From: Butyrivibrio sp. AC2005
GTDB lineage: Bacteria > Bacillota > Clostridia > Lachnospirales > Lachnospiraceae
DNA length: 64,000 nucleotides
Reading direction: 5' to 3'
Assembly (NCBI RefSeq): GCF_000424145.1
Contig: NZ_KE384137.1
Coordinates: forward strand, 624,361-688,360
The notes beneath the pieces are model-generated. The model saw only the letters and a program-made list of their open reading frames with translations, was not told the origin of the DNA and ran no database searches. The position numbers and the translations under genes were made by a program. Of the stretch, positions 2,865 through 64,000 are shown piece by piece; within the stretch, counting starts at the first letter, position 1, and each line of letters opens with the position of its first letter.

Positions 2865-3113
2865 AAATAATTCCCGAGAATGCCGGTTCCGGTTATTTGA
2901 CTCCTAGCGAACGCCAGGTGGGTTACCGCAGCCCTCTTCGCTGTCTTCCTCTCCCATAGCTTGTCTGCACATGTGCAGGGCCGGAGGCGTGACATTTGAA
3001 AATGCGATCTAGGTGTCCCGTTTAAAGTAACTGTAGGTTCAAATTACACCGGAGTTGTCGAACATCCCAGGCGAGCTCTTGGCTCGATATAAACCACTCT
3101 CTGGTGGTTCTTT
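2838..3113 (-). ncRNA. ssrS: Structured non-coding RNA, probable 6S RNA
   Basis: A stretch of about 275 nt with no plausible reading frame, a consensus-like promoter in front and a strong terminator behind. The minus-strand RNA contains ATTTGAACCTACA and CTTTAAACGGGACACC, and distally GGCTGCGGTAACCCACC. I associate this combination with Firmicute 6S RNA (Rfam RF00013). Distant arms can pair (CCGGTG with CACCTGG, GTTAC with GTAAC) into one long interrupted hairpin, as expected for 6S, which mimics an open promoter and binds RNA polymerase. Two small hairpins lie near the 5' end (ACCAC/GTGGT and CGAGC/GCTCG). The identification comes from memory of the family; exact mature ends are not visible. 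Confidence 0.65.
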
Positions 3114-47500: not shown

Positions 47501-48545
47501 CGTAGTTCTTCTCAGCCTCAGCACATGTAGCATTTGCTTCTTCTACTGCCTTTGAAGCCTTATCAAAAGCTTCTTCAGCTTCTTTTATAGTTGAAGCATT
47601 CTTGATATTTTCTTTTTGTTCTTTAACATCCTTCTCAGCCTTTTCAATTGCATCTGAAAAATCATTTACGGCATCTGAAACAGATTGCTGTGTATTTTCA
47701 GCATTATCAAGTGCTTTGTCCACATTTGATGACTCTGTTTCAATTGAATCAACATTTTCCTTTACAGCTTCTCCAGTGGGAAGTTCCTTAACTGCCTTAT
47801 CAAAATTATCCATTAAAGAATGAATATCCTGATTTTCAGATTCTTTATTTGCAGATTCCTGGTTTTCAGACTCAGCAGAAGGCGCTGCTTCTCCATTTGC
47901 CACAGTTTCCTCATTTTGCTGATTATCGTTTGCTGAACCAGGCTGCTGTGAATTGTTATTCTCCTGCTGTGAAGTGTTTTCCTGGTCAACAAGCTCGTTA
48001 TTAGAGTTATCTGTATCAGCATTATTATCTGTGGAAGAATTATTATCCACAGAAGCATTATTATCTGACTGGCCATTAGCTTCCTGAGTATTTGTTTCCT
48101 GCACATCAGGTCCCGGATTAGTTGTTTCCTGATTAGCTGTCTCCTGATTAACTGGTTCCTGTGAGCTTAATTCCTGAGAATTATCGCCACTATTATTGGC
48201 TTCCTGATTGTTTTCTCCCTGATTAATCTCTTGCTGATTATTCTCTTCCTGGTTATTCTCTTCCTGGTTATTTTCTTCCTGCTTGCTTTCGTTCTCTACC
48301 GCTTCAACATTCTGTACAGCAGCATCAACTTTTTCGGTAATCTCATTTACATCTGAAACAGAACTATTATAATCATCGGCTTTTTTCTCAGCTGACTCAT
48401 CAACTACCTCACCATTCTGCTGCTCAGGTTCCATAGCCTGATCTATCTCAGCAGCAAGAGCTGCTACCGGCTGCATTACCATAGCAGCACTGAGTCCGAA
48501 TGTTGCAGTTTTCAAAATGCACTTGTTAATAGTTTTGTTCTTCAT
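44583..48545 (-). CDS. Giant coiled-coil cell-surface protein with C-terminal anchor
   Basis: About 1320 residues. The ATG at 48545 is chosen for AGAGG six bases upstream. Signal peptide (about 1-32, ending VAALAAE). Residues about 45-235 are Asn/Gln/Glu-rich with short repeats (NNQEENNQEENNQ). Residues about 240-1020 are long Ala/Glu/Lys-rich coiled coil interrupted by a globular island near 660-750 (DPYHNAVLARYVIEYYLKK). Residues about 1040-1140 contain a repeated NNNANTDN unit, then a Lys-rich patch. A VLGAKREK motif precedes an acidic spacer, and the protein ends with a hydrophobic segment (WLLGLFAAIAAGAGV) and KRKKK. No LPxTG is visible, so it is either membrane-anchored or uses a non-standard sorting signal. 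Long stretches in other frames here are artefacts of repeats. Confidence 0.85.
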   Translation of the reverse strand: MKNKTINKCILKTATFGLSAAMVMQPVAALAAEIDQAMEPEQQNGEVVDESAEKKADDYNSSVSDVNEITEKVDAAVQNVEAVENESKQEENNQEENNQEENNQQEINQGENNQEANNSGDNSQELSSQEPVNQETANQETTNPGPDVQETNTQEANGQSDNNASVDNNSSTDNNADTDNSNNELVDQENTSQQENNNSQQPGSANDNQQNEETVANGEAAPSAESENQESANKESENQDIHSLMDNFDKAVKELPTGEAVKENVDSIETESSNVDKALDNAENTQQSVSDAVNDFSDAIEKAEKDVKEQKENIKNASTIKEAEEAFDKASKAVEEANATCAEAEKNYAEKKAEYEEAVQKVEEAKKAYEEASSKAGADLETAKSNLEAAKQAADALKAKSEEALKDLEAMENLTEELAEKQVEAAKKAKEEADKEAADAQKAADKAKEDADKAAESAKALDQTATDDETTAKNAQKTATELKKKAENAQEVADAAKTELDEAKAKVKSLDDAVSDSNLATENAKNELGKAQNKAKEDLDKLELGDFAFARAEDVTVDEINTTIENIKKAAKDDADKKAEAAEKLKNDLTELENAIEEGEKANARVKEAEDKLTAAKEKVNNNMEDCVKELKNAKVTKDPYHNAVLARYVIEYYLKKQDVNANIIHKYDNFELYMHFIKYEINGKTHYYNFYTYEDSILVYEKDGYMGKYGEEIQRFGTIEDLRSDFKKLQEDITDAQNAYKTVSKDEEKAITDGEAAKGSIDNVRQASEKATSESEIANNKHKDIDNDSTLKAMKDIASTLVDPEKNYEDSKKELATAQANKETYGENYSKQVKDLQNDYDKKHGEADKAKSLADKSQSTADELKEISESSRATADRANTTADELKVKAEQDAKEAAKASNNAKEISAMLENANKQKAYLELREASAKAVEKVESSQKTVDDLKSAIEKLDRKTTVGNFVSDPDKDKIEELNEKLAKAEEALEKAKDNKKAVEDELKSAEVDLAKKTEEIKKKEEAKKQEKNQADNQTNQDQATTDNGINNNANNNNNANTDNTNSNNNANTDNADSNNNANTDNANSNNSADTDNTSNNNHPENVTNESTEKNSNDNSTENNNSDDKKDKKKRKKKKTNNSNKNSEAAKQESNDQGSDSQGSNDQSLNSQTSNKEANAIASATDNNKKSEADNKTTVGDKAQANEQDKPAVLGAKREKPDEMVTAKAADSDAENAEEANNAKVTDNVSDSTDNTAEENTVNADSQNDENKAETVVDADTTGVTIADGETATADAPKKDSKPYWLLGLFAAIAAGAGVTAGTKRKKKDK

Positions 48546-48611
48546 AGTATACCTCTTCATAAAACATTATATTTAACGGCTTTTTGCCATTTGTTAACTT
48601 TTGCATGTAAA

Positions 48612-50689: not shown

Positions 50690-51331
50690 TCAATCTCCCG
50701 AAACCGCATTCTCGATTTCCTTGGTTACGGACTCACCGGAACCGGGTGCTACCATCTGAACGAAATCACAGCGAACAGTTACACGACTTGCACCACCAAT
50801 GGTACATGTAAATACTGTAAAGTCCCATTCGCCTTCATCCATGGCATCCACATCATATGTGCCTATCTCTTCTATATAGGTCACCTGATAATAATACTGA
50901 CGACCATCGATATCAGTTATGATAATGGTATCTCCTGCAACAAGATTCTTAAGATTGCCAAAATGTCTCTGATAGTTATGTCCTGCGACTATCAGATTAT
51001 TTTCGTACACAGATCCCTTATATCGGCAGGGAGAAGTCTTAGCATTTGTACTGGACCACTCCTGCTGAATCGGAAGTCTGATATCAATTGCAGGTATTGT
51101 TATTATTCCGATAAAGGACTGACCGTTAACATCAACGGATTTCATGTCTCCGGTCGGGGTAGCCTCAATCGGTGTATTGGTGATCTGAGCCTCAACCCCT
51201 TCAAGAACAGTCGCTGCGCTCACACCCGCTGCCAGATCCTCCTGCTGGTTATGTACCACAATATTTGCAGCAATACCAATACAGATGAATCCCAGCAGAA
51301 TCATTATCCTACCTTTGGTAATTATTTTCAT
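50690..51331 (-). CDS. Sortase, housekeeping/class D-like
   Basis: 213 residues. An N-terminal membrane anchor (about 8-26) and a sortase barrel with His in NLIVAGHNYQRHFG, catalytic Cys in TVFTCTIGG and Arg in SRVTVRC. The TLxTC motif reads TVFTC. It lacks the C-terminal membrane segment of pilin-polymerising sortases, so it more likely anchors the finished fibre or other LPxTG proteins to the wall. Last gene of the pilus cluster; AAGGTGG before ATG. Class assignment is inferred from size and motif only. Confidence 0.85.
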   Translation of the reverse strand: MKIITKGRIMILLGFICIGIAANIVVHNQQEDLAAGVSAATVLEGVEAQITNTPIEATPTGDMKSVDVNGQSFIGIITIPAIDIRLPIQQEWSSTNAKTSPCRYKGSVYENNLIVAGHNYQRHFGNLKNLVAGDTIIITDIDGRQYYYQVTYIEEIGTYDVDAMDEGEWDFTVFTCTIGGASRVTVRCDFVQMVAPGSGESVTKEIENAVSGD

Positions 51332-51438
51332 GTTAAGCCCACCTTATGCGTTGATATGCCGGAATGCATAATCCCAAGCAATATCATTCAGTTAATAAGT
51401 AAGCCCCATTTTTACTTTAATCTACCTGTCGTCCTCTT

Positions 51439-51453
51439 GTCAGCTGAGCTGAC
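51439..51453 (-). other. Short palindrome at a pilus gene junction
   Basis: GTCAGCTGAGCTGAC, a 7-bp arm palindrome with one central base, between the minor pilin and the last sortase. No U-tract follows, so it is more likely an mRNA processing or stabilising structure, or a protein site, than a terminator. Confidence 0.4.
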
Positions 51454-51463
51454 TTTATGAAAA

Positions 51464-52711
51464 TTATTTCCTTTTTCTCTCGCTTCTAAATCCAAGGAAT
51501 ATAAGTATTATTCCCAAGATAGCAAGTATCGGAATAGGCCACCAGAGCTGACCTGTTTGAGGAAGTCTTCTTGCACCCAAAACTTCAGGAAGCTCATCTA
51601 TGGCTTTTCTGATAGCACCAAGAACTCCACTGTCATCACTCGGAGGATTGCTAGGTGTATCTACCTTATCAGGTGTCTTTGGTGTGTCTGGTGTATCAGG
51701 TGTGTCCGGATTGCTCGGATTTTTAGGATTATTAGTTTTTCTCGGTTTATCAGGCTCATCCGGATTGTTAGGTGTTTCAGGTTGTTTTGGTTCCTCCGGA
51801 TTCACAGGAGTCTTTGTGTTTGTAATAACAAATGTGTTATCTTTTCTTTCAACGCCGGAGGTATAACCACTAAAATCCATCACCTCTTCTACTGTATATG
51901 TATGTCCTTTTTCAGACTTCCACTTATACTGCCAGTTATTCTCACTTGAAAGAGTTATTGTCTCTACAAGAGAGCCGTCACAATAAATATTTACCTTGAT
52001 GGAAGCTGGTCTGGTAGAAGAATCATCATTTTTCCACTGCTTGAAAAGCTGAAACTCTTCAGGATCTCCCGAAAGCTTGGTCGCTTCTCTCTTCGGAATA
52101 GCAATAACATCATAAATAGCATTTGCCCATGTTCCGTCCCAACCATTGCCCAGATTCTCATCAAGGTTATTGGGCCCCGGAACTACTGAAAGGAAATCCC
52201 AGTATTTATACTGAATTCCATCTAATACAATAGGCTCATTAATTCCCAGGTAAAGACCCTTATCTACTTTTCCAAGCTTTGCAAAACCTTCTGAATCTGA
52301 TGTTCCGCTATAGCTTGGCTGAACATTGTTTTCATTGACAAGTATTGTAGCATCGGTAATAATGCTGTTCCATTTGTCCTGATCAGCAATTGAGTACATA
52401 TCTGTAATCTCGCTGCCTATCTGATCAAAAGGAGCTACAACAGTGAACTTACCATCTTCAGATATAGATGCAAGCTTGTAGACCTTAACATTGACTCCGG
52501 CCATCTTACCGTACTCAGGAATATCACCATCACTGCTGCCATCGAAAGAATAATAAACTGACAATGTAGCATCACGGTTCATATCGATTTTGCCAAGGTC
52601 ATTGTTATCAGCTGCGCTGGCGCTTACCGCAACAGGAAGCATCAACGCTGAGAGCATGCCGGCTATCGCCCCTCCCATAATCAATTTTTTCACTTTTTCA
52701 AACATCTTCAT
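51464..52711 (-). CDS. LPQTG minor/anchor pilin
   Basis: 415 residues. A signal peptide (about 1-33), a pilin-like N-terminal domain (about 35-215), a Cna_B domain (about 220-305: FKQWKNDDSSTRPASIKVNI ... YTVEEVMDFSGY), a Pro-rich wall-spanning linker (about 308-365, repeated PDTPDTP), then VLGARR and the sorting signal LPQTG, a hydrophobic segment and RKRK. The Pro-rich stalk is typical of the base pilin that is attached to peptidoglycan. Its start is only six bases past the class C sortase stop, and GAGG overlaps that stop, so translation is coupled. Confidence 0.88.
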   Translation of the reverse strand: MKMFEKVKKLIMGGAIAGMLSALMLPVAVSASAADNNDLGKIDMNRDATLSVYYSFDGSSDGDIPEYGKMAGVNVKVYKLASISEDGKFTVVAPFDQIGSEITDMYSIADQDKWNSIITDATILVNENNVQPSYSGTSDSEGFAKLGKVDKGLYLGINEPIVLDGIQYKYWDFLSVVPGPNNLDENLGNGWDGTWANAIYDVIAIPKREATKLSGDPEEFQLFKQWKNDDSSTRPASIKVNIYCDGSLVETITLSSENNWQYKWKSEKGHTYTVEEVMDFSGYTSGVERKDNTFVITNTKTPVNPEEPKQPETPNNPDEPDKPRKTNNPKNPSNPDTPDTPDTPKTPDKVDTPSNPPSDDSGVLGAIRKAIDELPEVLGARRLPQTGQLWWPIPILAILGIILIFLGFRSERKRK

Positions 52712-52717
52712 AAAAAC

Positions 52718-53608
52718 TTACCTCGAGGGTCTATGCAAATCATCAACTGTTGCAGACCTTTTCTTCTTCCCATGGTTTGATGTACTAAACACAAACCAAA
52801 TAAACAGAACTAATATGATCGGTCCTGCTATAAATGGCGCAACCATAAGATTATTAAACTTAGTTGCATCAGCAGGTACTATAAGTCTGGTTTCTTCATT
52901 ATAATCAACACGCCTGCCCCTAACGAGCATTCTGTGGGTGTTAACACCATAAGGTGTACACGTCACAAGCGTGACATAGTCTTTGTCAGGATAAATCGTC
53001 AACCCCTGTGTCTCCTCAGGAAGAACAATCTGTATGTTATCAACCTGATATGCAAAGGTCTGATTCATTATATGTAATAAGAAGGTATCCCCTTCTATCA
53101 TTTGATCAAGCTCTGAAAAAAGCTTAGCGGACGGAAGTCCTCTGTGTCCGGACAAAATCGCATGCGATCCGGCAGTTCCGGCAGGAAGCGATGATCCCGG
53201 TATATGACCTATTCCAACCTGTAAAACAGATTCTGTTACATCGTGATAAATCGGCAGGTCAACTCCGATCTTCTCGATTTCAATGTGTCCCATTACTCCG
53301 GTTCCGGTGGGATCAAGTGTTGCATGATACTCTGCAAGTTCTTCATCCGAGAGGTTAAAATTCATACCTCTGGAAGCAAGCTTCTCATTATACTCAGTAG
53401 CAGCTTTCCAAATTTTCTCATAATCTTCTTCAGCTAATTGTGCCAAAGCCTCATCATAAGTCGATATCGCTCTACTTTGATTTTTGGTATTTATATAGTT
53501 ACTTACAGACGGATACAGAAAAATACCAAGGCCGACAATAAAAATCGCGGCAAATATGAGGTTTGGTAATTGCTTTGCAAATCCCTTACTCTTCATCCAA
53601 GTATCCAT
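52718..53608 (-). CDS. Class C (pilin-polymerising) sortase
   Basis: 296 residues. Membrane segments at both ends (about 14-32 and 252-275), as in class C. The catalytic core has His in HAILSGHRGLPSAKLF, Cys in VTLVTCTPYGVNTHRMLVRG with the class C TLVTCTPYG form, and Arg in the same stretch. I could not see the DPF/DPW lid motif; DPTG near residue 98 is in a comparable place. It should join backbone pilins covalently at their LPxTG threonine. The start codon is uncertain (no strong ribosome site). Confidence 0.92.
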   Translation of the reverse strand: MDTWMKSKGFAKQLPNLIFAAIFIVGLGIFLYPSVSNYINTKNQSRAISTYDEALAQLAEEDYEKIWKAATEYNEKLASRGMNFNLSDEELAEYHATLDPTGTGVMGHIEIEKIGVDLPIYHDVTESVLQVGIGHIPGSSLPAGTAGSHAILSGHRGLPSAKLFSELDQMIEGDTFLLHIMNQTFAYQVDNIQIVLPEETQGLTIYPDKDYVTLVTCTPYGVNTHRMLVRGRRVDYNEETRLIVPADATKFNNLMVAPFIAGPIILVLFIWFVFSTSNHGKKKRSATVDDLHRPSR

Positions 53609-53659
53609 CCATTAAATGTAAATACATTTTGTTACCCAAATAATTATCCTGAAATCTGT

Positions 53660-53692
53660 ATTCCGGAGCGAGCAAATGAGCTCGCCCGGAAT
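53660..53692 (-). other. Stable hairpin between backbone pilin and sortase C
   Basis: ATTCCGG-(A)-GCGAGC / GCTCGC-CCGGAAT: 13 paired bases with one bulge and loop AAATGA, no following U-tract. It could protect the 3' end of the pilin message or reduce downstream expression. Confidence 0.65.
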
Positions 53693-53803
53693 CACAGCAT
53701 GTTTCTATATATGTTGTCTACAGAAACAAGATTCAATATTCCAGTAATTATATTTTGTTAAAAATCTCTACCTGATAATTATATTATTTGATTGCCTAAA
53801 TAA

Positions 53804-55192
53804 TTATTCAGCATCGCTCTTTCTGCGTACTACGAAGAATACAACAGCAGCTACGATGAGAAGTCCACCGATGATGTAGAAAATAGTTGTACCTATTCCA
53901 CCAGTTGAAGGAAGCATAGCACCTGCATTATTTATAACTGGTACTTCCTGTACAAGCTTTGTAAGCTCATTTTCAGAGAAATTACCACCGGAGATAGTAA
54001 CTTTCTCGTCTGCTGCCTTGTTGTAACCAGCAGGTACTGTTGACTCTGTCAATGTATATTCACCATTCTTAAGTCCTTCGAATGCAGGAACTGTACCATC
54101 TGCAATTGACATATGCTCATCTGCATCAGTTGCTTCATCAACCCATGTTACATTTCCATTAACAAGCTTAAAGTACTTACCCTCAGAATTCATGAGTTTA
54201 AATCCTGCACCTGCAAGAGGATTCCCACTACCATCTTTCTTAAGAACCTTGATTGTAGCATTGTATACTGTAGCAACTGAGTGCTCTGTATGATAATTAT
54301 CACCATATGTAAGGTAAGCATCGTTAGGAAGACCTGTAGCAGTAGCAGCACTAGCATTTACTGTTGCTGAATAAGTTACTGTGTATGTACCCTCAGGAAT
54401 GTCATCATTAAATGTAATTGTAAGTGTATCGCCCTGAGCAGGAGTTTCTTCTACATTATACCAATCTGTACCTGTCACAGCTGCTCCTGCCTTAGTTGTA
54501 CCTGTCACAGCTGCATCATTATTATATGTAAGGCCTACACTCATAGTATCATGAAATTTCAGATTCTTTGCACCATTACCTACATTAACTGTTGCAGTAT
54601 AAGTAACACTCTGTCCAATCTGTTCAAGCGCCTTTTTACCATCAGGACTGATTTCGCTAGCGCCTGTAATAGTCTTATCTACAGTATGTGTTGAATTCTT
54701 ATCTTGCACTGCTGCATTAGGATGAGCAGTATCAATAGAAACAGCTGTACCAAGTCCAGTAGTTATGTAGTAGTAACCATTTGGAAGAGTCTTGGATGTA
54801 GCTACATTTTGACCTGTAGATGTAGCTGTATCAACCAGATCAGCCTCTGTTACATACGCTGCGATAGCTGTGATATCCGCCTCTGTGAGCTGTCCATTCT
54901 CACCTTCACCTGTATAACTAACGTTGCCCTGAGCATCTACTGTAAAACCTGCAGGAGCTGTAGTCTTACCCGAAACGAGCTTGTAGCTGACTTTATCACC
55001 ATCTGCTACAGCATCAAATACCTTATAAATCTTATAAGTATTTGTTTCATCTGCTGTTACTCCTTCAGCGGGTGTAATTGTAATATTTCCCGTCTCTGCC
55101 TTTGCGTCCATTGCGGTTCCTGCTGAAAGTGTAATGGTAAGAGCCATAGCACCAGCAAGGATTCCAGTTAAAATTTTCTTGAGTCCTTTCAT
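53804..55192 (-). CDS. LPSTG backbone (major) pilin
   Basis: 462 residues. A signal peptide (about 1-32), N-terminal D1 pilin domain (about 33-165), isopeptide-type middle domains (about 170-315) and a Cna_B/SpaA-like domain (about 318-425) with the E-box NGEYTLTESTVPAGY. The sorting signal MLPSTGG, a hydrophobic segment and RRKSDAE close the protein. A lysine in the segment HTVDKTITG is the best candidate for a pilin-motif lysine. Strong AAGGAGAGAGG site. It is flanked by hairpins on both sides and is followed by its sortase. This is most likely the polymerised shaft subunit. Confidence 0.9.
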   Translation of the reverse strand: MKGLKKILTGILAGAMALTITLSAGTAMDAKAETGNITITPAEGVTADETNTYKIYKVFDAVADGDKVSYKLVSGKTTAPAGFTVDAQGNVSYTGEGENGQLTEADITAIAAYVTEADLVDTATSTGQNVATSKTLPNGYYYITTGLGTAVSIDTAHPNAAVQDKNSTHTVDKTITGASEISPDGKKALEQIGQSVTYTATVNVGNGAKNLKFHDTMSVGLTYNNDAAVTGTTKAGAAVTGTDWYNVEETPAQGDTLTITFNDDIPEGTYTVTYSATVNASAATATGLPNDAYLTYGDNYHTEHSVATVYNATIKVLKKDGSGNPLAGAGFKLMNSEGKYFKLVNGNVTWVDEATDADEHMSIADGTVPAFEGLKNGEYTLTESTVPAGYNKAADEKVTISGGNFSENELTKLVQEVPVINNAGAMLPSTGGIGTTIFYIIGGLLIVAAVVFFVVRRKSDAE

Positions 55193-55266
55193 TTAACCCT
55201 CTCTCCTTTTTGTTTGAATCTTGTCTGTTTTAGACGTTTTTTAGTTTCTTTTTGTTACTTATATGA

Positions 55267-55307
55267 GGTGCAAATGAGCACCTTTCTAAAATGCCAGAGG
55301 CATTTTA
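55267..55307 (-). other. Two hairpins between adhesin and backbone pilin
   Basis: GGTGC-AAATGA-GCACC (55267-55282) and TAAAATGCC-AGA-GGCATTTTA (55287-55307, 9-bp perfect stem). The first has the same GCAAATGAGC core as the hairpin at 53660. No U-tract follows on the minus strand. Confidence 0.6.
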
Positions 55308-55317
55308 AAACATATTC

Positions 55318-58300
55318 TTAGTTTTCCTTTTTCTTTCTGAAAAGGATGACACCGGATATTCCGATAGCCAATAAACCTAAACCAAACACTATGAACGGCA
55401 TATTACCTGCACCACCGGTTGACGGCAATACATATCCAAATAAATACTTGTTTGTAATAACAACTTCCCCATAGTTCTTGTCCTGAGCAGTCATCTTGTA
55501 CGCTGCCATTTCATCTTTATTAGGAGCATTGTACGTATTACCATTATATGTGTATGTAACTGCATAATTATTCATGTAGTCATCAGATTCCTTCACGCAG
55601 TACTCATAGTTATTACCATTTTCATCCATGATAGGAAGATCGCCTATTTCTTTAGTCCAGCCATTATCCTTTGAAAGCTGCGCAGTACCATATTCCTCCC
55701 AATTACCACCTTCAATTCTTCGATTGATATAAATAGTTAATGGTGAATGATCTCTTGTATCTACAGTTCCATCGGAATCCAGCCAAACCTTTTTAGCGGT
55801 AAGCTTACCAGCAATACTATTGTTGAATACCACATCATCTATTGAGCCCTTTAATTCCTTAACCAGGAATTCACTTGGGAACTTCTCTCCAACTGTTTCA
55901 AGTTCGGGCAAATAGAGTTCATACTGTGCTTTTACTTCGCCTTTCACATCTGTATATGTAATGTTTGAATGAAGATAATAAAAATCATCCCTAAGAGGAA
56001 CTATCTCATCCTCGCCCTTATGCACTGCCAAGTCAGTCATCTTATCTGACGAATAACGCTTCATGGCTGTCGTACGCAACTTATCAACAACAATCTTTAC
56101 ATAATAAACATTTGTGTCATATTTAATACCATCTATTCCCGTATTCTCTTCAGTTATTTTATAGAAATAAGTACCTTCATACCTAAAGACAATTCCGCCA
56201 AAATTTGCTACAGCTGATGAAACTGATTTGTTCTCAACATTCGTTGGTGCGTCAAGCGTAACTGTTGTCGTTGCCGGCATTGGTACACTTACTCCGGGAA
56301 TCTCTTTACCTTCAGAATTTAAAGCAATACAACTTACAGGTTCAATTTTAAAGGTAAACTTCATGTCTTTTGTCCAAGTTCCACCTGTGAACTTTTTGGT
56401 TACCTTGATAGGACCTACGGGAATACTGTAGTAATTACATACCTGTACTGTCTGTGTATGAGAAATATTATCAACGGATTCATCCCCAACAACAGCCGTC
56501 GGACAAACATTCAAGTGATACTGATCTGGATCTCCTCCTGTCGGTGTAAGGTCAGCTGAGAACACTACTCTTTGGTTATTTCCACCTGTGCCATATAGCA
56601 TAGTAAAATAATCCAAAGTTTTACTTCGTTGTTCTATTATCTCTTTATCAACTGTCACATAGTATTTTGTAACTCGAGACCACTTGGAATCCGTTCTTAG
56701 ACTGCTTGTATTGCTCTCTTCATAATAATCAAATGAAATTCCATCACCAACCTCTTCAACAGTATAGGAACCGGCATCAAGTCCTACTATTGTCCACTGA
56801 GCACCCTGGTTGTAAATTACATCATATTTTTTTCCAGTTGCACTTCCATTACTAAGATACTCATATGCAGGCTCTTTACGTCCGGCCTTACCAGTGAACC
56901 CATGAACTATAATATATTTCTTTGTAGAAACATTAGTAACCCTGAATGTGACTTTACTTAGTATCGCATCATCACTATCTCTTACAAGATCCGATCCAAA
57001 GTCATTTATAACCATCTTATGGATTCTTAGCATTCCACCACCAGTAGTGTTATAGAAAGCAACGTTATGATATTTTATGTCGGTTTTAGAATTACTATCC
57101 TGAATTCTGTTAGGATCATTATAAAGTCCTGTTCCAGGATTTGACTCCATCGTCTTAACTTCGTCAGATGTAATTCTGTAGTAATTTACCTCTCCATTTA
57201 AATAATGTTTAATCTTTATCAGAATACCGGATGAATCCTTAGCATATCCATCTACATCCTTCTCAGTAAGCATGAAGTAATAGGTATGCTGTTTTTGATA
57301 GTCTTTATCACTGGCTTTTGTTGAGTCCCAACCATAGGTCATTCCCCATTCGGCAGGACTTATATCATAGGAAATTTCACTTCCTGTATTGGTTATTGTT
57401 GCAGTCTTTACATTTCCGTTTGCATCCTTCTTCCACGACTTTTCGTCTGAATCAAGCATGCGAAGTGTAAAACTAAACTTCCCTGTAGTGTCACTACCTG
57501 CAAGTGAACCATCAACATATTTCTCTGCTTTTATCTTTACAGGTTCTTCATTTATAGTATTGTTAAATACCACCTTATCAGCATCAATTTCGTTCCAGCC
57601 CTCTGTGCAATACTTTACAGAGTCAGCATAATAGATAGTCTTATTACCATCTTTCTTGCTTTTAATATCTATTATCGCAAGATACCTTGTTCCATCATAT
57701 CCTATGGATGTATCTGTACCCTTTTCCTCCGTAAGAAGAATATAGTATTGACCTTCCTTGTCATCTATAAGTTCTGATACATCTATTGAAATATCACTTC
57801 CTTTATTTGTGCCGGTAACAGTTTGTCCTGAAGAATAAAGTCTTTCAGCTTTAAAGGTATATACCTGATCAGCACTCGGCTCATTACCATTTACTGTCTT
57901 CTTAGCTTTTATTGATACAACAGCACCCTTCTCTGTAGTACCTATAAAATCTCTTCTGTGTGTCTCGCCTTTAATAGTTACAGTATCAGCAATAAAGTTA
58001 CCATTACCATTTGTAATAGTGACTTTTGCACCAAGTGCAATCACCTGACCAAAAATATCATTCAAGAAAAATTCTTTTCCGGAAGCATTGTAAAAGTTAT
58101 AAACAACACGTCCTGCCTTAACATCTTTTTCTTCTTTTGTTGAAAGCTCTTGGTTATTTACTTTAATAACATTTGCCTGATTAGGATGAAGAATTCCATC
58201 GTTCCCGGAACAATCAATGTTTATAATAATTGCCTGTTGCTCATAATCATTTGGGAAAACATAGTCCAGCCTATTACCTGAAGCAAAACTGTTCCACTGC

Positions 58301-60783
58301 GCACTTGTAAAATTCAAGTAGCCTGCTCCGCCTATTCCTGTATATGTTATTGTCTTATGACTACCATCCTCAGTAATAGAAACATCTACATTTTCTTTTA
58401 CTTCAGCCATCTTATTTGAAATAGCCTGTACTTCACTCTTAACACCCTCAAGATCAATATAGGGAGCACTAGCAGTATCAGCATCCTGAATGATATTGGA
58501 AGGATGAGCTACCTTTTTCCCTGAAATTGAAAAATAAGGCTCTACCTGTCCATTTTCATTCTTATAAAGATCCACATTAAGACTATTACCTACAGCAAGT
58601 GTATGAGACTCGCTCGATGCCATATTTTCATTCACTGTAGTAATATTTTGCGCATATGAGAGCTCATTCTCCATATTATTGGTTCCAAAATTAGAACCTG
58701 CATTAAGATTCTTTGCAAGCACATTACCATTAGTATGAGCATTAAGATTTGCAGTATCAAAAGCAACAATATGGAAATTACCTGCAACACCAAGTACTAA
58801 TGAATCATCAAAATATTTACTGTTTCTAAAGGCATCCTTCTCTCTATTTACTTTATATATTAATGTCTTATCACCTGATTTATATGTATATGTATCTTTG
58901 TCTTCTGCCGCAGGAGAAAAGCCAAATACTGAGAAATTGGTTACTGATATCTCAGCATTCTCTCCTGAAGAAGTATTAACTGTTCCAACCTTCTCTTTCT
59001 GAATATCAGTTGCGTCAATATTAGTTGCTTCTGATGTAGAATCTGTACTTTCCTTAACACTTTCGGATAGAGGAAGATGATTGATTTCAATCTCGCTCTC
59101 ACTTTCTGTGTTCTCACGAAGATTAGACATCTGGTTGTCAAGGAATTCAAACTTAACGTTTACGCTTCCTTCCTTAGGCTGATATTCAACCTTCTCGCCT
59201 TCAATAACGTTGCCTTCTTCGTCAGTCTTATTCACAAAGAATCCTACGTCATAAAGGATAGTATTCATAGCATTGTGATTCTTAATACTCTGCTCTTCAC
59301 CATCGTTAAGAGCCTTCATATAAGCATCATAATTGTAGCCTTCTGTTTCTGTTGTGATTTCCTTTACAATAAACTCAGCGTCATCCGGCACTGCATCAGC
59401 ATATTCAAGAGTAGCTGTTACTCGAACCTTTGCATCCTCATAAACATACTCTGTCTTTGTTGGCTTGTCAGACTTATATGTAAGAACTACTGTCTTGTTT
59501 TCTTTAATTACAACAACATCACCCTCAGCTGCCTCAGTTAAAGAAACTGTTGAAGAAGCCTCTTCTGAAGTTGTCTCGCTTGAAGTATCCTCTTCAGAAA
59601 CTGCGTCATTTGAACTATTTTCTTCTGTAGCTGTATTGTCTGAAGAACTATCCTCAGATGAAGCATCGCTTGAAGAGCTTTCTGAAGAAGCTGTCTCACT
59701 AGAAGAACTATCTTCTGAAGTTAACTCCTCTGCTGTATTCTCTGAAGGCTCACTTTCTGAACTTGTGCTTTCTGCAGCTGTATCCTCAGAAGCTGTAGTC
59801 TCAGAAAGTGTCTCATCTGTTGCACTTCTGTCTGTGAACTCACCATCTACTGTGTTCTCAGTAGAAGTAGTTTCTTCTGATTCTGTAACACTCCTGCCTA
59901 CAGTTACTTCATAATATTTATGTCCATTAGCATCCTGCTTAGCTGTGATCTTGTTGATCTCAACTCCATCGATCTCAGCCTTCTTAAACTCATAACCTTC
60001 CTGCTTGGGAGCCTCTGTTGTAAAATCAAGACTCTCGGAAAGATTGATCTCCTTTTCATCAGCGATCTTCTCGCCGTCCTCTGTTACATAGGAAACTGTA
60101 AGAACAACATCCTCTGTGAGCTCTACTTCGTTGCTATCCTTCTTGGAATCACCTTTAGTAGCAGCATCTGTATTTTCACCATCTTCTGTAGAGGTTTCTG
60201 TAGAAGCATCTGCAACATCTGTGGTCTCACCGGTAGTAGTCTGGTCTGTGGCACCTTCCTCTGAATTAGCGTTCTCAGCATTTGCCTCTGAACCCTCTGT
60301 AGATTCTGTGTTATTCTCAGCTGACTCTTCTGTTGATGCTTCTCCACTATTAGATTCTTCTGAAGTAGCTTCTGCATTAGCAGATTCCTCTGAATTCTCT
60401 GATCCGGAATTCTCAGTCTCAGAGTTTTCTGATTCAGCGTTTTCAGTTTCAGAATTCTCTGAGTTCTCTGATTCTGTGTTCTCTGACTCAGAGCTTTCCT
60501 CTTCAGAACCTTCAGTGCTTTCACTTTCTTCAGAATCCTGTATAGAGTCTGTATCTCCGGCTTCATCATTACCGGAAGCAAGTTCCTCAATATTCTCGCC
60601 CTCGAGCACCATTCCCACGTCTTCAGCTTCATCACCTGACAAAGCGTTTGCAGACTTATTCAATGAATACATGGTTGCTGTTGTAACCAGAAGTGCAACA
60701 ACAAGCATAATTGATACCCATTTCTTCAAGGAAACGTGCTTCTTTAAATATTCCTCTATACGTTTGTTATCTAATTTCCTCAT
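55318..60783 (-). CDS. Large LPSTG tip adhesin of the pilus
   Basis: 1821 residues. A long signal/anchor region (hydrophobic stretch about 22-42), two Ser/Glu/Thr/Asn-rich low-complexity regions (about 60-215 and 300-445) separated by a small beta module, a large N-terminal adhesin part (about 450-950), then a chain of beta-sandwich Cna_B-like modules. The last of these is at about 1685-1785 (AKKVWLDSDGTVDTRDHSPL). It ends YVLPSTGG, hydrophobic segment, RKKKEN. AAGGGAAAG before ATG. Its position ahead of backbone and sortase and its size suggest the tip adhesin. The ligand is unknown. The opposite-strand open frames here mirror the Ser/Glu repeats. Confidence 0.88.
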   Translation of the reverse strand: MRKLDNKRIEEYLKKHVSLKKWVSIMLVVALLVTTATMYSLNKSANALSGDEAEDVGMVLEGENIEELASGNDEAGDTDSIQDSEESESTEGSEEESSESENTESENSENSETENAESENSETENSGSENSEESANAEATSEESNSGEASTEESAENNTESTEGSEANAENANSEEGATDQTTTGETTDVADASTETSTEDGENTDAATKGDSKKDSNEVELTEDVVLTVSYVTEDGEKIADEKEINLSESLDFTTEAPKQEGYEFKKAEIDGVEINKITAKQDANGHKYYEVTVGRSVTESEETTSTENTVDGEFTDRSATDETLSETTASEDTAAESTSSESEPSENTAEELTSEDSSSSETASSESSSSDASSEDSSSDNTATEENSSNDAVSEEDTSSETTSEEASSTVSLTEAAEGDVVVIKENKTVVLTYKSDKPTKTEYVYEDAKVRVTATLEYADAVPDDAEFIVKEITTETEGYNYDAYMKALNDGEEQSIKNHNAMNTILYDVGFFVNKTDEEGNVIEGEKVEYQPKEGSVNVKFEFLDNQMSNLRENTESESEIEINHLPLSESVKESTDSTSEATNIDATDIQKEKVGTVNTSSGENAEISVTNFSVFGFSPAAEDKDTYTYKSGDKTLIYKVNREKDAFRNSKYFDDSLVLGVAGNFHIVAFDTANLNAHTNGNVLAKNLNAGSNFGTNNMENELSYAQNITTVNENMASSESHTLAVGNSLNVDLYKNENGQVEPYFSISGKKVAHPSNIIQDADTASAPYIDLEGVKSEVQAISNKMAEVKENVDVSITEDGSHKTITYTGIGGAGYLNFTSAQWNSFASGNRLDYVFPNDYEQQAIIINIDCSGNDGILHPNQANVIKVNNQELSTKEEKDVKAGRVVYNFYNASGKEFFLNDIFGQVIALGAKVTITNGNGNFIADTVTIKGETHRRDFIGTTEKGAVVSIKAKKTVNGNEPSADQVYTFKAERLYSSGQTVTGTNKGSDISIDVSELIDDKEGQYYILLTEEKGTDTSIGYDGTRYLAIIDIKSKKDGNKTIYYADSVKYCTEGWNEIDADKVVFNNTINEEPVKIKAEKYVDGSLAGSDTTGKFSFTLRMLDSDEKSWKKDANGNVKTATITNTGSEISYDISPAEWGMTYGWDSTKASDKDYQKQHTYYFMLTEKDVDGYAKDSSGILIKIKHYLNGEVNYYRITSDEVKTMESNPGTGLYNDPNRIQDSNSKTDIKYHNVAFYNTTGGGMLRIHKMVINDFGSDLVRDSDDAILSKVTFRVTNVSTKKYIIVHGFTGKAGRKEPAYEYLSNGSATGKKYDVIYNQGAQWTIVGLDAGSYTVEEVGDGISFDYYEESNTSSLRTDSKWSRVTKYYVTVDKEIIEQRSKTLDYFTMLYGTGGNNQRVVFSADLTPTGGDPDQYHLNVCPTAVVGDESVDNISHTQTVQVCNYYSIPVGPIKVTKKFTGGTWTKDMKFTFKIEPVSCIALNSEGKEIPGVSVPMPATTTVTLDAPTNVENKSVSSAVANFGGIVFRYEGTYFYKITEENTGIDGIKYDTNVYYVKIVVDKLRTTAMKRYSSDKMTDLAVHKGEDEIVPLRDDFYYLHSNITYTDVKGEVKAQYELYLPELETVGEKFPSEFLVKELKGSIDDVVFNNSIAGKLTAKKVWLDSDGTVDTRDHSPLTIYINRRIEGGNWEEYGTAQLSKDNGWTKEIGDLPIMDENGNNYEYCVKESDDYMNNYAVTYTYNGNTYNAPNKDEMAAYKMTAQDKNYGEVVITNKYLFGYVLPSTGGAGNMPFIVFGLGLLAIGISGVILFRKKKEN

Positions 60784-60819
60784 TCCTTTTCTTTCCCTTA
60801 TACTTTTCTCCGCCCAATT

Positions 60820-61497
60820 TTACTGTAAATCCGGCTCTTCCATACTTTCAGTTCCGGTGCTGACTTTACTCTCGATCCCCCCAAAATCTTTAAACGGGTA
60901 AAGTCTGAAGAATACTGCACCGATCAGCTGCTCTGCAGATACACAACCTACAGTAGTTGATCTCGAATCGATTGAAACCGATCTATGGTCACCCAGAACA
61001 AAATATCTCTTGTCCGGAACCTGATACGGAAATTCAATCTTATCGCCTTCTCCCATGCCTGCTGCATATTGACTCGGGTCAGATATGTAAGGTTCATCCA
61101 GCTCTACGCCGTTAACAAAAACCTTTCCTGACTCGTCAATGTTAATCCAGTCTCCTGGAGAACCTACAACTCGCTTTACCAAAACCTTGTTGTTGTAGTA
61201 AAAAGCGATCAGTTCTCCTGCTTCGAACTCCGAATAGTTATTAGCTATTACTATCTGTCCTGTCTCAAGAGTGGGTGTCATACTGTCACCCGTAACCTTA
61301 AGCACTGTGATAAAAAAGCTCGATATCAGCACTGAGACAGCGGCCACGACTATGATTACCACTATGGTATTTCTAAGTGTTCTCTTGTAGTCGTGCTTTC
61401 TGTATTCTCGTTTTAGCTCTTTTTTCAGTTCATCAAGCGACGGTCTATTAAGTTGTTCCTTTGGAGCTTCCTTTGATGGAATTTGCTTTTCTTCCAT
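60820..61497 (-). CDS. lepB: Signal peptidase I of the pilus locus
   Basis: 225 residues. One membrane segment (about 42-68) follows a charged cytoplasmic tail. Catalytic Ser in VTGDSMTPTL and Lys in NKVLVKRVVGSPGD are present, with the family box GDHRSVSIDSR, so the enzyme should be active, unlike some pilus-linked SipA homologues that lack the dyad. It would cleave the signal peptides of the pilins that follow. It is preceded by its own probable promoter and dyad and lies 36 bp before the adhesin gene. Confidence 0.92.
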   Translation of the reverse strand: MEEKQIPSKEAPKEQLNRPSLDELKKELKREYRKHDYKRTLRNTIVVIIVVAAVSVLISSFFITVLKVTGDSMTPTLETGQIVIANNYSEFEAGELIAFYYNNKVLVKRVVGSPGDWINIDESGKVFVNGVELDEPYISDPSQYAAGMGEGDKIEFPYQVPDKRYFVLGDHRSVSIDSRSTTVGCVSAEQLIGAVFFRLYPFKDFGGIESKVSTGTESMEEPDLQ

Positions 61498-61575
61498 GAT
61501 TCAAACCCCTTTATTTGAGCGCATTTGACAGTTTGTTAAATTACAACTATCAAATTTAAAGCGCGCAGCTCTCAT

Positions 61576-61642
61576 ATTATAAGTGATAACTTGTATTGTT
61601 TGGACACGAAATATGAACATTTTCATTCATAATCCGTACTTG
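61576..61642 (-). promoter_or_regulatory. Promoter and dyad in front of signal peptidase/pilus genes
   Basis: -10 TATAAT at 61576-61581 (minus strand) with a poor -35. Starting 19 bases upstream is a 42-bp imperfect dyad (61601-61642) containing ATGAA...TTCAT and ending, on the plus strand, CGTACTTG. It matches the dyad at 48637-48678 at about 25 of 42 positions and has the same length and distance from -10. It implies shared control of pilus genes and the 1325-residue surface protein. Confidence 0.6.
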
Positions 61643-61677
61643 ACAATATCAGTTTTTTATGCATCTGATATTAAGCT

Positions 61678-62847
61678 TTAGACTGCAGTTCCCTCTATTT
61701 CCACATTATCACTGTTTTCTACAGCTTTCTTTGTGGTACGTTTTCTTGTTGTTGTAGTTTTCTTTTCAGCTTCGGTTTCCTTAGCTTTTGCTGTCTTTTT
61801 TGCAGTTGTTGCTTTTTTAGTTGTTGTCTTTTTTTCAGTTGTTGTTTTCTTGGTTGTAGCTGCCTTCTTTGTGGTTGTTGTCTTTCTGGTTCTCTTCGCA
61901 GGCTTTTCCTCTGCAACTTCTTCTGTCTTCTCTTCCACAGCTACTTCTGCCGGTACTTCTTCTGTCACTTCTTCAGGCTTTTCTTCTTCAACTGCCTGTA
62001 CTACTTCTGTCTTTTCTTCTAAAGCCGGCTCTTCTGTGACCTCTGTCTGTGACTCTTCTGTTACTTCTGTCTGCGGCTCTTCTATTGCCTCATCTTCCGA
62101 TACATCCCAGGCAGTTACTGTCTTTTTCCTGGTTCCAGTCTTCTTAAGTCCGCCTGAGAGCTTCTTGATCTTCAGCATTGCTTCGGATTCACCCTTATCC
62201 TCAGGCTTAAAGCCTCTCTCGGCTTCTGCAATTTTCATAGCCTCTATCTTTTTAAGTGTTTCTTCGTATTGAACTGCTGCCTTCTGTGCAGCTTCGAAGA
62301 ACCCATTTATAGAAAGTATCGCTTCTGCAAGCGTACCTGCATTCTCAATCTGTTCGAGCTTTTTCTCTTCTTCAGCGTGCAGGGCATCCCTTTCCCTCTC
62401 AAGTCTTGCATGAAAGCCCTTGAATTCTCTCTCATGTCTTGCCCTAAGACCTGTAATATCCTTTTGGAAAAGTGCCTCAGCTTTTGCCTTTTGCTCGTTA
62501 AACTTCTCACGCATCTCGGCTTTTTCCTCATTAAAGCCATTAAGAAGCGCCGCTCTCTCCATGGCAGCCTGCTGCATATAAGCAGCCTTCTCCCTTGCGT
62601 GCTGTGCCTGAATTTCTGCCTTTTGCTGTGTGAACTTCTCACGCATCTCTGCTTTTTCAGCATCAAATTTCGCAAGAAGATCCGCTCTCTCATCAGCCAT
62701 CTGCTGAAGGAGCTGTTCCCGTTCCCTCTCGAACTGTGCCTGCATCTCCTTTTCATGAGCCCTGATAGCTTCAGCCTCTTCAGAAAACTCAACAAGCATC
62801 TGCAGGAGTTCTTTTCTATTTAGTTTTCTAAGTTCTTTCTGTGCCAT
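61678..62847 (-). CDS. Cytoplasmic coiled-coil protein heading the pilus locus
   Basis: 389 residues, no signal peptide. The N-terminus (KELRKLNRKELLQMLVEFS) is followed by an uninterrupted coiled coil (about 20-165) with an internal duplication (AEKAEMREKFTQQKAE and EEKAEMREKFNEQKAK), a short folded segment (about 170-240), an acidic Glu/Val/Thr stretch (about 250-315) and a very basic Lys/Thr tail (about 318-372, KKTTTEKKTTTKK). The basic tail resembles histone-like tails and could bind nucleic acid or membrane. It lies directly behind the c-di-GMP riboswitch; AAGGAG before ATG. No function is known to me; an assembly or scaffold role is a guess from position. Confidence 0.75.
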   Translation of the reverse strand: MAQKELRKLNRKELLQMLVEFSEEAEAIRAHEKEMQAQFEREREQLLQQMADERADLLAKFDAEKAEMREKFTQQKAEIQAQHAREKAAYMQQAAMERAALLNGFNEEKAEMREKFNEQKAKAEALFQKDITGLRARHEREFKGFHARLERERDALHAEEEKKLEQIENAGTLAEAILSINGFFEAAQKAAVQYEETLKKIEAMKIAEAERGFKPEDKGESEAMLKIKKLSGGLKKTGTRKKTVTAWDVSEDEAIEEPQTEVTEESQTEVTEEPALEEKTEVVQAVEEEKPEEVTEEVPAEVAVEEKTEEVAEEKPAKRTRKTTTTKKAATTKKTTTEKKTTTKKATTAKKTAKAKETEAEKKTTTTRKRTTKKAVENSDNVEIEGTAV

Positions 62848-62933
62848 GAATCTCCTTCAATTCATCCCCACATGAAATGTTTAAGAATAGTCCCCTCGTA
62901 CTATTATTAACAAGAACCTTGGTATTTTTAGGC

Positions 62934-62966
62934 AAAAAAATAGCCCGTTTGAGTTCAAACAAGGCT
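62934..62966 (-). terminator. Riboswitch-linked intrinsic terminator
   Basis: The minus-strand RNA has AGCCTTGTTTG-AACT-CAAACGGGCT (about 10 pairs, one bulge) followed by ATTTTTTT. It lies about 50 bases after the GEMM aptamer and 87 bases before the start codon, a typical transcriptional expression platform. Confidence 0.85.
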
Positions 62967-63014
62967 TTGCATCAAAAGAATATAATTGATGCGCTTCCTT
63001 AATACTACTAAGCG

Positions 63015-63100
63015 CACCAGCAACTGGCTGTCTATCCCCCACGAACAGACCCTCTAGCTTTGCGTCACTACCTTGCGGTAGTTTTGCCCTGAAATTCTTC
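63015..63100 (-). promoter_or_regulatory. c-di-GMP-I (GEMM-I) riboswitch aptamer
   Basis: The minus-strand RNA contains CAGGGCAAAACTACCGCAAG, GTAGTGACGCAAAGCTA and AGACAGCCAGTTGCTGG. These are the conserved GEMM-I blocks: a first hairpin with GCAA tetraloop in the GGCAAA...GACGCAAAGC frame, and a second hairpin closed by GTCT/AGAC with the GCC-x-GTTGC 3' edge. Rfam RF01051 is the expected match. It has its own promoter upstream and a terminator downstream, and heads the coiled-coil/pilus genes. Whether ligand turns expression on or off cannot be read with certainty. Confidence 0.88.
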
Positions 63101-63132
63101 ACTTAACTATATTTGATTTTTACAGCAAGACT

Positions 63133-63161
63133 ATAATAGACTAGCTGAAAATAAAAATCAA
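63133..63161 (-). promoter_or_regulatory. Promoter of the riboswitch transcript
   Basis: On the minus strand, -35 TTGATT (63156-63161), 17-bp spacer, -10 TATTAT (63133-63138). The start would be near 63126, about 25 bases before the aptamer. Confidence 0.75.
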
Positions 63162-63267: not shown

Positions 63268-64000
63268 TTATTTACCTTTTCTCCGTTTCCTCCTTACATA
63301 TTCCTCGCCAATAAGTGCAAAGGTTGCAAGTGCAAGTCCGCCTATTGTAAATGGTATCCTTCCGGTACCTCCGGTGGATGGCAGAGCATAGGCTTCTACT
63401 TCGTTTCTATCATTGGTTATTGTTATGGTTCCTTCATTTATACCTTGCTTATTGTTATCTGAATATTCAGCTGTGTAATAAACACTTGCTACTTCAGATA
63501 CGTAGTAGAGCCATTCGTATGTTATACCGGATTTATCTGTATAGTATTTATCCAGTTTCGTTACATTAGCATTCCATAACTCACCTTCAGTTATTGTAAC
63601 TTCCCGCCTGAATTTCGCATCCTCAGCTCCAACCCTTGCTTCTCCTGAGTCTGTAGAATTCTTAGCAACGTCAATACCCACATCCGGAGAAGAAACCTCC
63701 GCACTAATTTGCGGTGCAGAATTGTTCTCAACCGCATTGGAATTCCTTATTTGTATTGTTGTATTTCCGGTTATGGTAAAGGTTTTTGTAACCTTCTGCA
63801 CTCCTGACGTGTTCAGTTCACCACTGTAATCAACTACTTTGCCATTTTCCGTAACTGTTGTAAGATCCGACCAGTCACCATTTTTATGACTATAAAATGT
63901 TACTGTTACCTTTGATCCACTCTTTACAGAAGGAAATCCAATGTACTTCTTTATAGTGTTGTTAGGATTTCTACTGTCTATATTTACTGTATAGTAGTTT
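63268..64000 (-). CDS. C-terminal part of an LPSTG surface protein (partial)
   Basis: At least 244 codons, open through the right edge of the window, so the start is missing. The visible part is beta-rich: KSGSKVTVTFYSHKNGDWSD, then VTKTFTITGNTTIQIRN, then a Cna_B-like or pilin-like module. It ends ALPSTGGTGRIPFTIGGLAL and RRKRRKGK, a standard sortase signal. It is probably another adhesin or pilin of the same surface locus, transcribed ahead of the riboswitch unit. The LPSTGG matches the other pilins here, so the same sortase may process it. Confidence 0.85.
   Translation of the reverse strand, partial: NYYTVNIDSRNPNNTIKKYIGFPSVKSGSKVTVTFYSHKNGDWSDLTTVTENGKVVDYSGELNTSGVQKVTKTFTITGNTTIQIRNSNAVENNSAPQISAEVSSPDVGIDVAKNSTDSGEARVGAEDAKFRREVTITEGELWNANVTKLDKYYTDKSGITYEWLYYVSEVASVYYTAEYSDNNKQGINEGTITITNDRNEVEAYALPSTGGTGRIPFTIGGLALATFALIGEEYVRRKRRKGK

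Follow-up and report, generated by a model that had tools for sequence, protein, structure and literature searches.

Riboswitches that sense cyclic di-GMP (c-di-GMP) have been described in front of genes for surface structures, and several systems come close to the one considered here, as far as the sections of the papers that we draw on describe them. In the Bacillus cereus group, the class I riboswitch Bc2 precedes cbpA/cap, which encodes an LPXTG collagen adhesin (PMC7423583). In Clostridioides difficile, class II switches are located before type IV pili as well as sortase-dependent proteins, and class I switches before flagella and a putative adhesin (PMC6200980). In Butyrivibrio proteoclasticus B316, the gene cluster Bpr_I0893-I0898 was noted as similar to pilus islands (PMC2914790). 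Here we describe a 64,000-nucleotide (nt) stretch of DNA from Butyrivibrio sp. AC2005 (contig NZ_KE384137.1, positions 624,361 to 688,360; the window hereafter), in which a class I c-di-GMP (c-di-GMP-I, or GEMM-I) aptamer stands before what is, by its predicted products, a complete sortase-assembled pilus locus (50690-62847).

The Butyrivibrio locus shares with Bc2 the placement of a class I aptamer before a cell-wall-anchored surface adhesin, but Bc2 serves a single adhesin gene, whereas the Butyrivibrio aptamer stands before a whole pilus locus with its own sortases and signal peptidase (PMC7423583). As in C. difficile, c-di-GMP riboswitches are found with surface structures that they control there; the pili of C. 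difficile, however, are type IV and under class II switches, and the Butyrivibrio pilus is of the sortase-assembled kind and lies behind class I (PMC6200980). The B316 cluster has the same gene set (a signal peptidase, three LPxTG proteins and two sortases), but the words "riboswitch" and "c-di-GMP" are absent from the main text that describes it (PMC2914790). Among the titles and abstract beginnings of the matches listed in our search of the open-licence literature, we found no description of a c-di-GMP-I riboswitch before a sortase pilus operon. A preliminary description of the window had called such an arrangement not well described, which is fair for the riboswitch, whereas the gene cluster had already been noted in B316 (PMC2914790). 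What we report is thus a known riboswitch class and a known pilus type in a combination that is kept across much of one genus.

The reading we favor, and consider probable, is that a c-di-GMP-I riboswitch acts by transcription attenuation ahead of the first gene of the pilus locus (gene 1). In the larger group of relatives that we call the main clade, gene 1 would run on into the genes for signal peptidase, adhesin, pilins and sortases, so that c-di-GMP would decide transcription of the whole operon, and a second attenuator with CsrA-like sites would follow the riboswitch. In the clade to which the window belongs, the riboswitch would head gene 1 and reach the pilus genes only by read-through, while an internal promoter of the activator type would give these genes a second input.

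The aptamer, the pilus genes and their linkage

Coordinates given without a locus code are window positions, and the genes and leader features of the locus all lie on the minus strand. Codes beginning with G denote genomes of our genus survey, G000 being the genome of the window (5,126,371 bases in 74 contigs), and codes beginning with L denote loci. The aptamer is a covariance match to Rfam family RF01051 at 63098-63016, which spans the model in full length (positions 1-87) and scores 58.9 bits against a gathering score of 35 (E 5.9e-9 for the window); from this match we infer that the RNA binds c-di-GMP. It is followed on its 3' side by an expression platform that ends in an intrinsic terminator, T1 (62934-62965; stem 62963-62944 plus a T-run), which was recovered by two scans, the second giving -10.1 kcal/mol. 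The preliminary description had placed an aptamer, a terminator and a promoter here, together with the pilus genes and their coordinates. The aptamer is borne out by the RF01051 search, the terminator by both scans and by co-variation of its arms, and the gene content by Pfam and NCBIfam matches. The promoter fared less well: the sequence TTGATT-17-TATTAT is present at 63133-63161 and matches 9 of 12 pattern positions, but such sites are no commoner in the region than chance would have them (36 found, 37.3 expected), which counts against our reading, and we list it as a candidate start of the riboswitch transcript.

Gene 1 (61678-62847) is an open reading frame for a coiled-coil protein in which no Pfam or NCBIfam domain was matched. 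It is followed by a signal peptidase I gene (60820-61497; PF10502 at 8.5e-35, and TIGR02227 at 122.9 bits, over the cut-off) and by a gene for an 1821-residue LPSTG protein, an adhesin or tip pilin with FctA, Cna_B, MucBP and choice-of-anchor A matches in Pfam and NCBIfam (55318-60783). Next come the backbone pilin, also with LPSTG (53804-55192), the class C (pilus) sortase (52718-53608; NF033745 at 258.9 bits with a cut-off of 160), a minor (anchor) pilin with a Cna_B match and an LPQTG motif read from the sequence (51464-52711) and a second sortase (50690-51331; PF04203 at 2.3e-17). The backbone pilin falls short of the model for SpaH/EbpB family major pilins (NF033902, 88.1 bits with a cut-off of 95), and its label is therefore based on its Pfam and TIGR04226 domains (PF16569 and PF17802; GramPos_pilinBB and SpaA). 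The second sortase is below the cut-off of every NCBIfam sortase class model listed, so we give it no class. As is typical of a Spa-type pilus, an isopeptide-type backbone pilin with an LPXTG motif is found with further LPXTG pilins (LPSTG, LPSTG and LPQTG), and a dedicated class C sortase lies inside the cluster.

Gene 1 regularly accompanies these pilus loci. The N-terminus of its product is LRKLNRKELLQM in the window and LKKLSRAELLEM or a near variant in most relatives, and the gene is single copy in G000. It was detected in 52 of 60 relative loci that were fetched, with a diverged form before the signal peptidase gene in three more (L123, L124 and L125); in the other five the contig stops short of gene 1. 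Outside records titled Butyrivibrio, a pattern search over 60 loci also picked up a gene 1-like N-terminus in six.

The linkage of aptamer and pilus locus is conserved in the genus. RF01051 matches occur in at least 64 of 79 genomes, a lower bound as the filters of this genus-wide table drop weak matches, and an orthologue of the class C sortase is likewise present in 64 of the 79. In 46 of these 64 sortase genomes, G000 included, the sortase gene has an upstream aptamer that shares its strand and contig, and the closest such aptamer is 7.2-15.8 kilobases (kb) away. Since eight genomes fall outside the judgement (seven whose contigs end before the leader, plus G076), the proportion is 46 of 56. 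In 43 of the 46 linked genomes, again with the window among them, the motif stands directly before gene 1. Several members of the window's clade, including G000, have two aptamers in a row, one before an extra adhesin gene and one before gene 1. The extra adhesin of G000 is a 2023-residue LPSTG protein whose 3' end reaches into the window (63268-64000, minus strand); its own c-di-GMP-I aptamer lies outside the window on contig 1:693780-693859 (L006 7781-7860), is followed by its own terminator and is situated 6.4 kb upstream of the pilus finding.

Several observations weigh against a strict coupling of aptamer and pilus. No upstream aptamer was found in 10 of the 64 sortase genomes although their upstream DNA was searched, by Rfam in G034, G031, G021, G001, G002, G077 and G019 and by a Butyrivibrio-trained model in G039, G044 and G048. 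In these searches no match exceeded the gathering score in the seven loci scanned with Rfam, and none appeared at E up to 1 in the 15 loci, the first seven genomes among them, given to the trained model; in L126-L130, five of these 15, the sequence stops within the operon or before reaching it. In G014, G066 and G025, the upstream aptamer stands only before the extra giant adhesin gene and not before gene 1, and in G034 none was found upstream of the pilus locus; the pilus therefore does not need the aptamer in these four genomes. In G001, G002 and G077 (L119, L120 and L121), for which no aptamer was found, tRNA genes lie shortly upstream of the pilus operon, which apparently sits at another chromosomal site. 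Beyond records titled Butyrivibrio, the trained model found no aptamer in 60 loci (L151-L210) with a flank of up to 10 kb, a limit within which misses are possible, as illustrated by L131 (G066), whose aptamer is 15.4 kb away. One of these 60, L166, may be G044, which is counted in the same genus. In all, this model was run on 78 of 80 named loci, these 60 included (L134 and L143, on short contigs, were omitted), and its 13 matches all fell in records titled Butyrivibrio.

Leader architecture and the direction of switching

The expression platform of the window offers the elements from which an attenuator could be built. The stretch 63100-63107 could form the 5' strand of a P1-like helix, its partner being the 5' arm plus loop of hairpin A, which lies directly 3' of the aptamer (62988-63018). 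A hairpin B predicted from sequence and folding (62969-62992) overlaps the 3' arm of hairpin A, and T1 follows. Farther downstream, a possible weak hairpin (62848-62863) holds the ribosome-binding site AAGGAG in its loop.

We asked of each pairing how many of 2000 swaps of its strands were as good as the native combinations; these counts are not probabilities, and the test is not free of relatedness. Two loci in which no terminator was recognised (L090 and L114) were dropped from the comparison of terminator and hairpin. The arms of hairpin A co-vary in both clades, with no swap in 2000 as good, and those of T1 do so as well (12 of 2000 in the window's clade and 0 of 2000 in the main clade). 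The P1-like helix co-varies in the main clade (0 of 2000), and its status in the window's clade is not clear (20 of 2000, or 393 of 2000 at a stricter cut). If the switch is of the ON type, P1 stabilised by the ligand would break hairpin A.

Other results speak against our reading. The antiterminator pairing that would connect these helices to the terminator is weak, with 18 of 2000 in the window's clade and 1213 of 2000 in the main clade, where it shows no co-variation. A pairing meant as a control reached 33 of 2000. In the swaps made for the second leader element of the main clade (32 leaders; see below), an unplanned combination, that of the middle stretch and the 3' arm of the terminator, came to 2 of 2000, so that low counts may arise from relatedness alone. 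Folding of five leaders of the window's clade gave no consistent switching: forcing P1 or hairpin A left the terminator nearly unchanged in G000, G015 and G016, G024 formed a register-shifted terminator hairpin whatever was forced, and in G017 the terminator had a probability of 0.41 with P1 forced as opposed to 0.03, which points to an OFF switch. A cruder fold of 44 leaders, with a mean terminator probability of 0.76 with the aptamer removed and 0.67 with it, also leaned OFF, and was not relied on as it cut off the P1 strand and used the wrong T-run in the window's clade.

A rival reading is the reverse of an ON switch, in which high c-di-GMP would halt the transcript, and we see the odds between the two directions as even. 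Because the G017 fold favors the terminator when P1 is formed, we do not lean to ON. An OFF switch would also fit the complementarity of the aptamer 3' strand to the terminator 5' arm, which in the main clade averages -8.55 kcal/mol against -8.33 kcal/mol for swapped strands (55 of 2000), but the same pairing shows no co-variation in the window's clade (1502 and 1292 of 2000) and would require the opening of aptamer helix P3. Precedents, as far as the cited sections go, point both ways: in C. difficile the class I switches turned expression off, with one class I gene rising in RNA sequencing (PMC6200980), whereas Bc2, a class I element before an LPXTG adhesin gene, is reported to switch on (PMC7423583).

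The junction of gene 1 with the signal peptidase gene

Whichever way the switch works, its reach depends on what happens at the 3' end of gene 1, and here the two clades differ. Of 37 main-clade loci, 35 have gene 1 overlapping the signal peptidase gene or ending no more than 13 nt from it, and the other two have gaps of 41 and 48 nt (start codons were chosen mechanically for these distances). Since the two genes overlap or nearly touch, a single transcript is likely in the main clade, on which the riboswitch would control the whole operon. Members of the window's clade have a gap of 86-196 nt (180 nt in the window itself).

This gap contains a conserved promoter-like arrangement. In the window it consists of an inverted repeat, ACGGATTATGAA-N8-TTCATATTTCGT (61606-61637), which is conserved with variation in the clade and which we propose as an activator site, and of a perfect TATAAT -10 box (61576-61581) 24 nt after the dyad. 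There is no good -35 box: the best has 3 mismatches, and the promoter scan missed the site. In an alignment of 10 loci of the clade, TATAAT is present in the gap in eight, with the dyad upstream, diverged in G025 and G018. G024 has neither, and the aligned stretch of G034 ends early, but a pattern search in that genome finds dyad, spacing and TATAAT within 2 mismatches. The preliminary description had cautioned that a second promoter seemed to exist at 61576, and the caution was right. Its broader claim of a whole pilus under a type I aptamer holds for the aptamer, the complete locus and the genus-wide linkage, but has to be narrowed for the window, where the predicted riboswitch directly heads gene 1 only and a conserved promoter follows, so that control of the pilus would require read-through.

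The arrangement recurs in the window's genome. The dyad has five sites in G000 at up to 3 mismatches, as opposed to none for a reversed control pattern, and in all five a -10 box lies exactly 24 nt on (four TATAAT and one TATACT). A longer pattern of dyad plus TATAAT, allowed up to 2 mismatches, is less discriminating, with 5 matches in G000 and 3 for its reversed control, and its matches outside the window's clade look like noise. Members of this promoter class, ACGRAWTATGAA-N8-TTCATATTTCGT with the -10 box at 24 nt, can be seen in L255 (1918-11544) and in the window (61576-61637). One site precedes an operon with a Cache-HAMP-GGDEF diguanylate cyclase and is divergent from the gene for a LytTR response regulator. 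The three that remain besides the pilus site stand before genes for a giant List_Bact-repeat protein and for two secreted proteins, one of them of 96 residues; neither secreted protein has a Pfam match. It is a guess, made from its position, that the LytTR protein binds the dyad. The pilus genes of the window's genome probably have a second input of the activator type, through a promoter whose layout is that of the one before the diguanylate cyclase operon and the three before surface or secreted proteins.

A stronger form of this proposal holds that in the window's genome the riboswitch controls gene 1 only and that the pilus genes are transcribed wholly from the internal promoter. We find this somewhat improbable, even if it would account well for the retention of TATAAT and dyad in the clade, for the placement of one of the five G000 promoters between the LytTR regulator gene and the GGDEF operon, and for the four genomes (G014, G066, G025 and G034) that lack an aptamer before gene 1. 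Against it, no intrinsic terminator turned up in a scan of the 180-nt gap, so that read-through from gene 1 into the signal peptidase gene is possible; gene order and strand are kept, moreover, and the two genes are nearly fused in the main clade.

The second leader element and its implications

In the main clade, the leader appears to contain a further element between the riboswitch and gene 1. A terminator lies more than 95 nt before the start codon in all 37 leaders and a second one within 95 nt in 36 of them; when the ends were shuffled, six times over, 2 to 8 of 37 had one. Its arms co-vary as well: in the 36 leaders they pair with -20.7 kcal/mol natively and with -14.4 kcal/mol after swapping, and none of 2000 swaps was as good. 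The stretch that separates the terminators holds, in 33 of the 37 leaders, an ANGGAN hexaloop on a stem of at least 4 pairs, where 200 shuffles of the leaders gave a mean of 1.24 and at most 5. All four bases occur at the N of the loop, and at one of the four stem pairs both bases have changed in 4 of 32 rows. In 32 leaders there is a second site further on, mostly GUAC-ANGGA, and in these a helix that closes the element co-varies (0 of 2000). MAFFT misregisters this second site in L078, L080, L084, L088 and L112, the consensus fold keeps only the 4-pair hairpin, and L079 is absent from the alignment. A proposed second antiterminator is strong (-13.9 kcal/mol), yet does not stand out, 212 of 2000 swaps being as good.

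A model built from the element finds it in 35 of 79 genomes, once in each and always just downstream of a c-di-GMP-I aptamer; 32 of these genomes had built the model, and three (G075, G045 and G050) are new. A representative copy is at L082 12773-12856 (minus strand), with two ANGGA sites between two terminators. In the window's leader no ANGGAN hexaloop hairpin was present and the terminator scan found no second terminator; among six leaders of its clade, the perfect hairpin occurs in one (G024). Rfam, scanned over four loci at E up to 5, gave no match reaching the cut-off at the element, the sub-threshold matches that touch leaders being ARRPOF (26.0 against 127.2 bits, L109) and SurA (22.9 against 100, L082, on the other strand). 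This putative element, which lies outside the window, is the most novel part of the system and matches no catalogued family in the checks made.

The consensus of CsrA binding sites is RUACARGGAUGU. The ANGGA sites of the element fit it, and we regard them as putative CsrA sites. The csrA gene is present in 73 of the 79 genomes and in 47 of 47 good ones, and fliW in 16 of 16 genomes tested. Among 15 readable flagellin leaders of 30, nine have an ANGGAN hairpin with at least 4 pairs; in simple shuffles the mean was 0.21 and the maximum 3. In this respect Butyrivibrio resembles the flagellin leaders of Bacillus subtilis and C. difficile, with CsrA-site hairpins before the gene and csrA and fliW in the genome; the hairpin of the pilus loci differs from them in its setting, as it follows a riboswitch, has a terminator on either side and precedes pilus genes, and it occurs in relatives of the window and not in the window (PMC11898703, in the sections drawn on here).

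It is tempting to combine these elements into a leader with two gates, and we offer this tentatively, as the less probable side of the matter. The main-clade pilus operon would be gated by two serial attenuators, each with its terminator, the c-di-GMP-I riboswitch and then a three-way-junction-like RNA with CsrA sites, and the pilus would be made only when c-di-GMP and the CsrA/FliW/flagellin checkpoint agree; the window's clade would have replaced the second gate by an activator promoter like that of the diguanylate cyclase operon, which would rewire the two inputs at a different level. The element could instead be an aptamer for an unknown small ligand, making the leader a tandem riboswitch with no CsrA site. 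Its three-way-junction-like layout with a co-varying closing helix, the terminator that follows in 36 of 37 leaders and the absence of any Rfam match above its cut-off from the four loci that were searched would all suit such an aptamer, but we think it unlikely: an A-N-G-G-A hexaloop with any base at N and a two-sided change of one stem pair in four rows are as expected of a CsrA target, and the distribution of csrA and fliW and the hairpins in flagellin leaders argue in the same direction. Finally, that chance or shared descent alone placed the aptamer near the pilus seems to us extremely improbable, for although the genomes are related and the 46 linked loci are not independent events, the linkage was retained while the adhesins diverged (in most main-clade loci, the best BLAST segment has 28-45% identity), and the arms of both the terminator and hairpin A co-vary.

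Several other features were seen along the way. Two further aptamers stand before genes for secreted DNA/RNA non-specific endonucleases, at L007 3715-4791 (PF13930) and at L008 3895-4523 (recognised by eye in a 148-residue frame). A fifth (L009 3862-7662) precedes the gene for a fibronectin-III protein, with a FIST-GGDEF protein encoded slightly downstream, and feedback on c-di-GMP is possible there. Downstream of the pilus locus and an M20 peptidase gene, the window encodes a 1325-residue surface protein (44583-48560) that looks mostly coiled-coil, has a membrane stretch at its C-terminus and gave no Pfam match. A 6S RNA at 2867-3076 of the window scores 47.1 bits, just over the Rfam gathering score of 46.4.

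The arrangement described here links the sensing of c-di-GMP by RNA, in a genus of gut bacteria, to a pilus of the sortase-assembled kind and not to a type IV pilus or a lone adhesin, and related species appear to show two ways in which a second input can be added. If the leader with two gates is true, it would provide a testable case in which c-di-GMP and flagellar state are combined on one mRNA in the choice between swimming and sticking.

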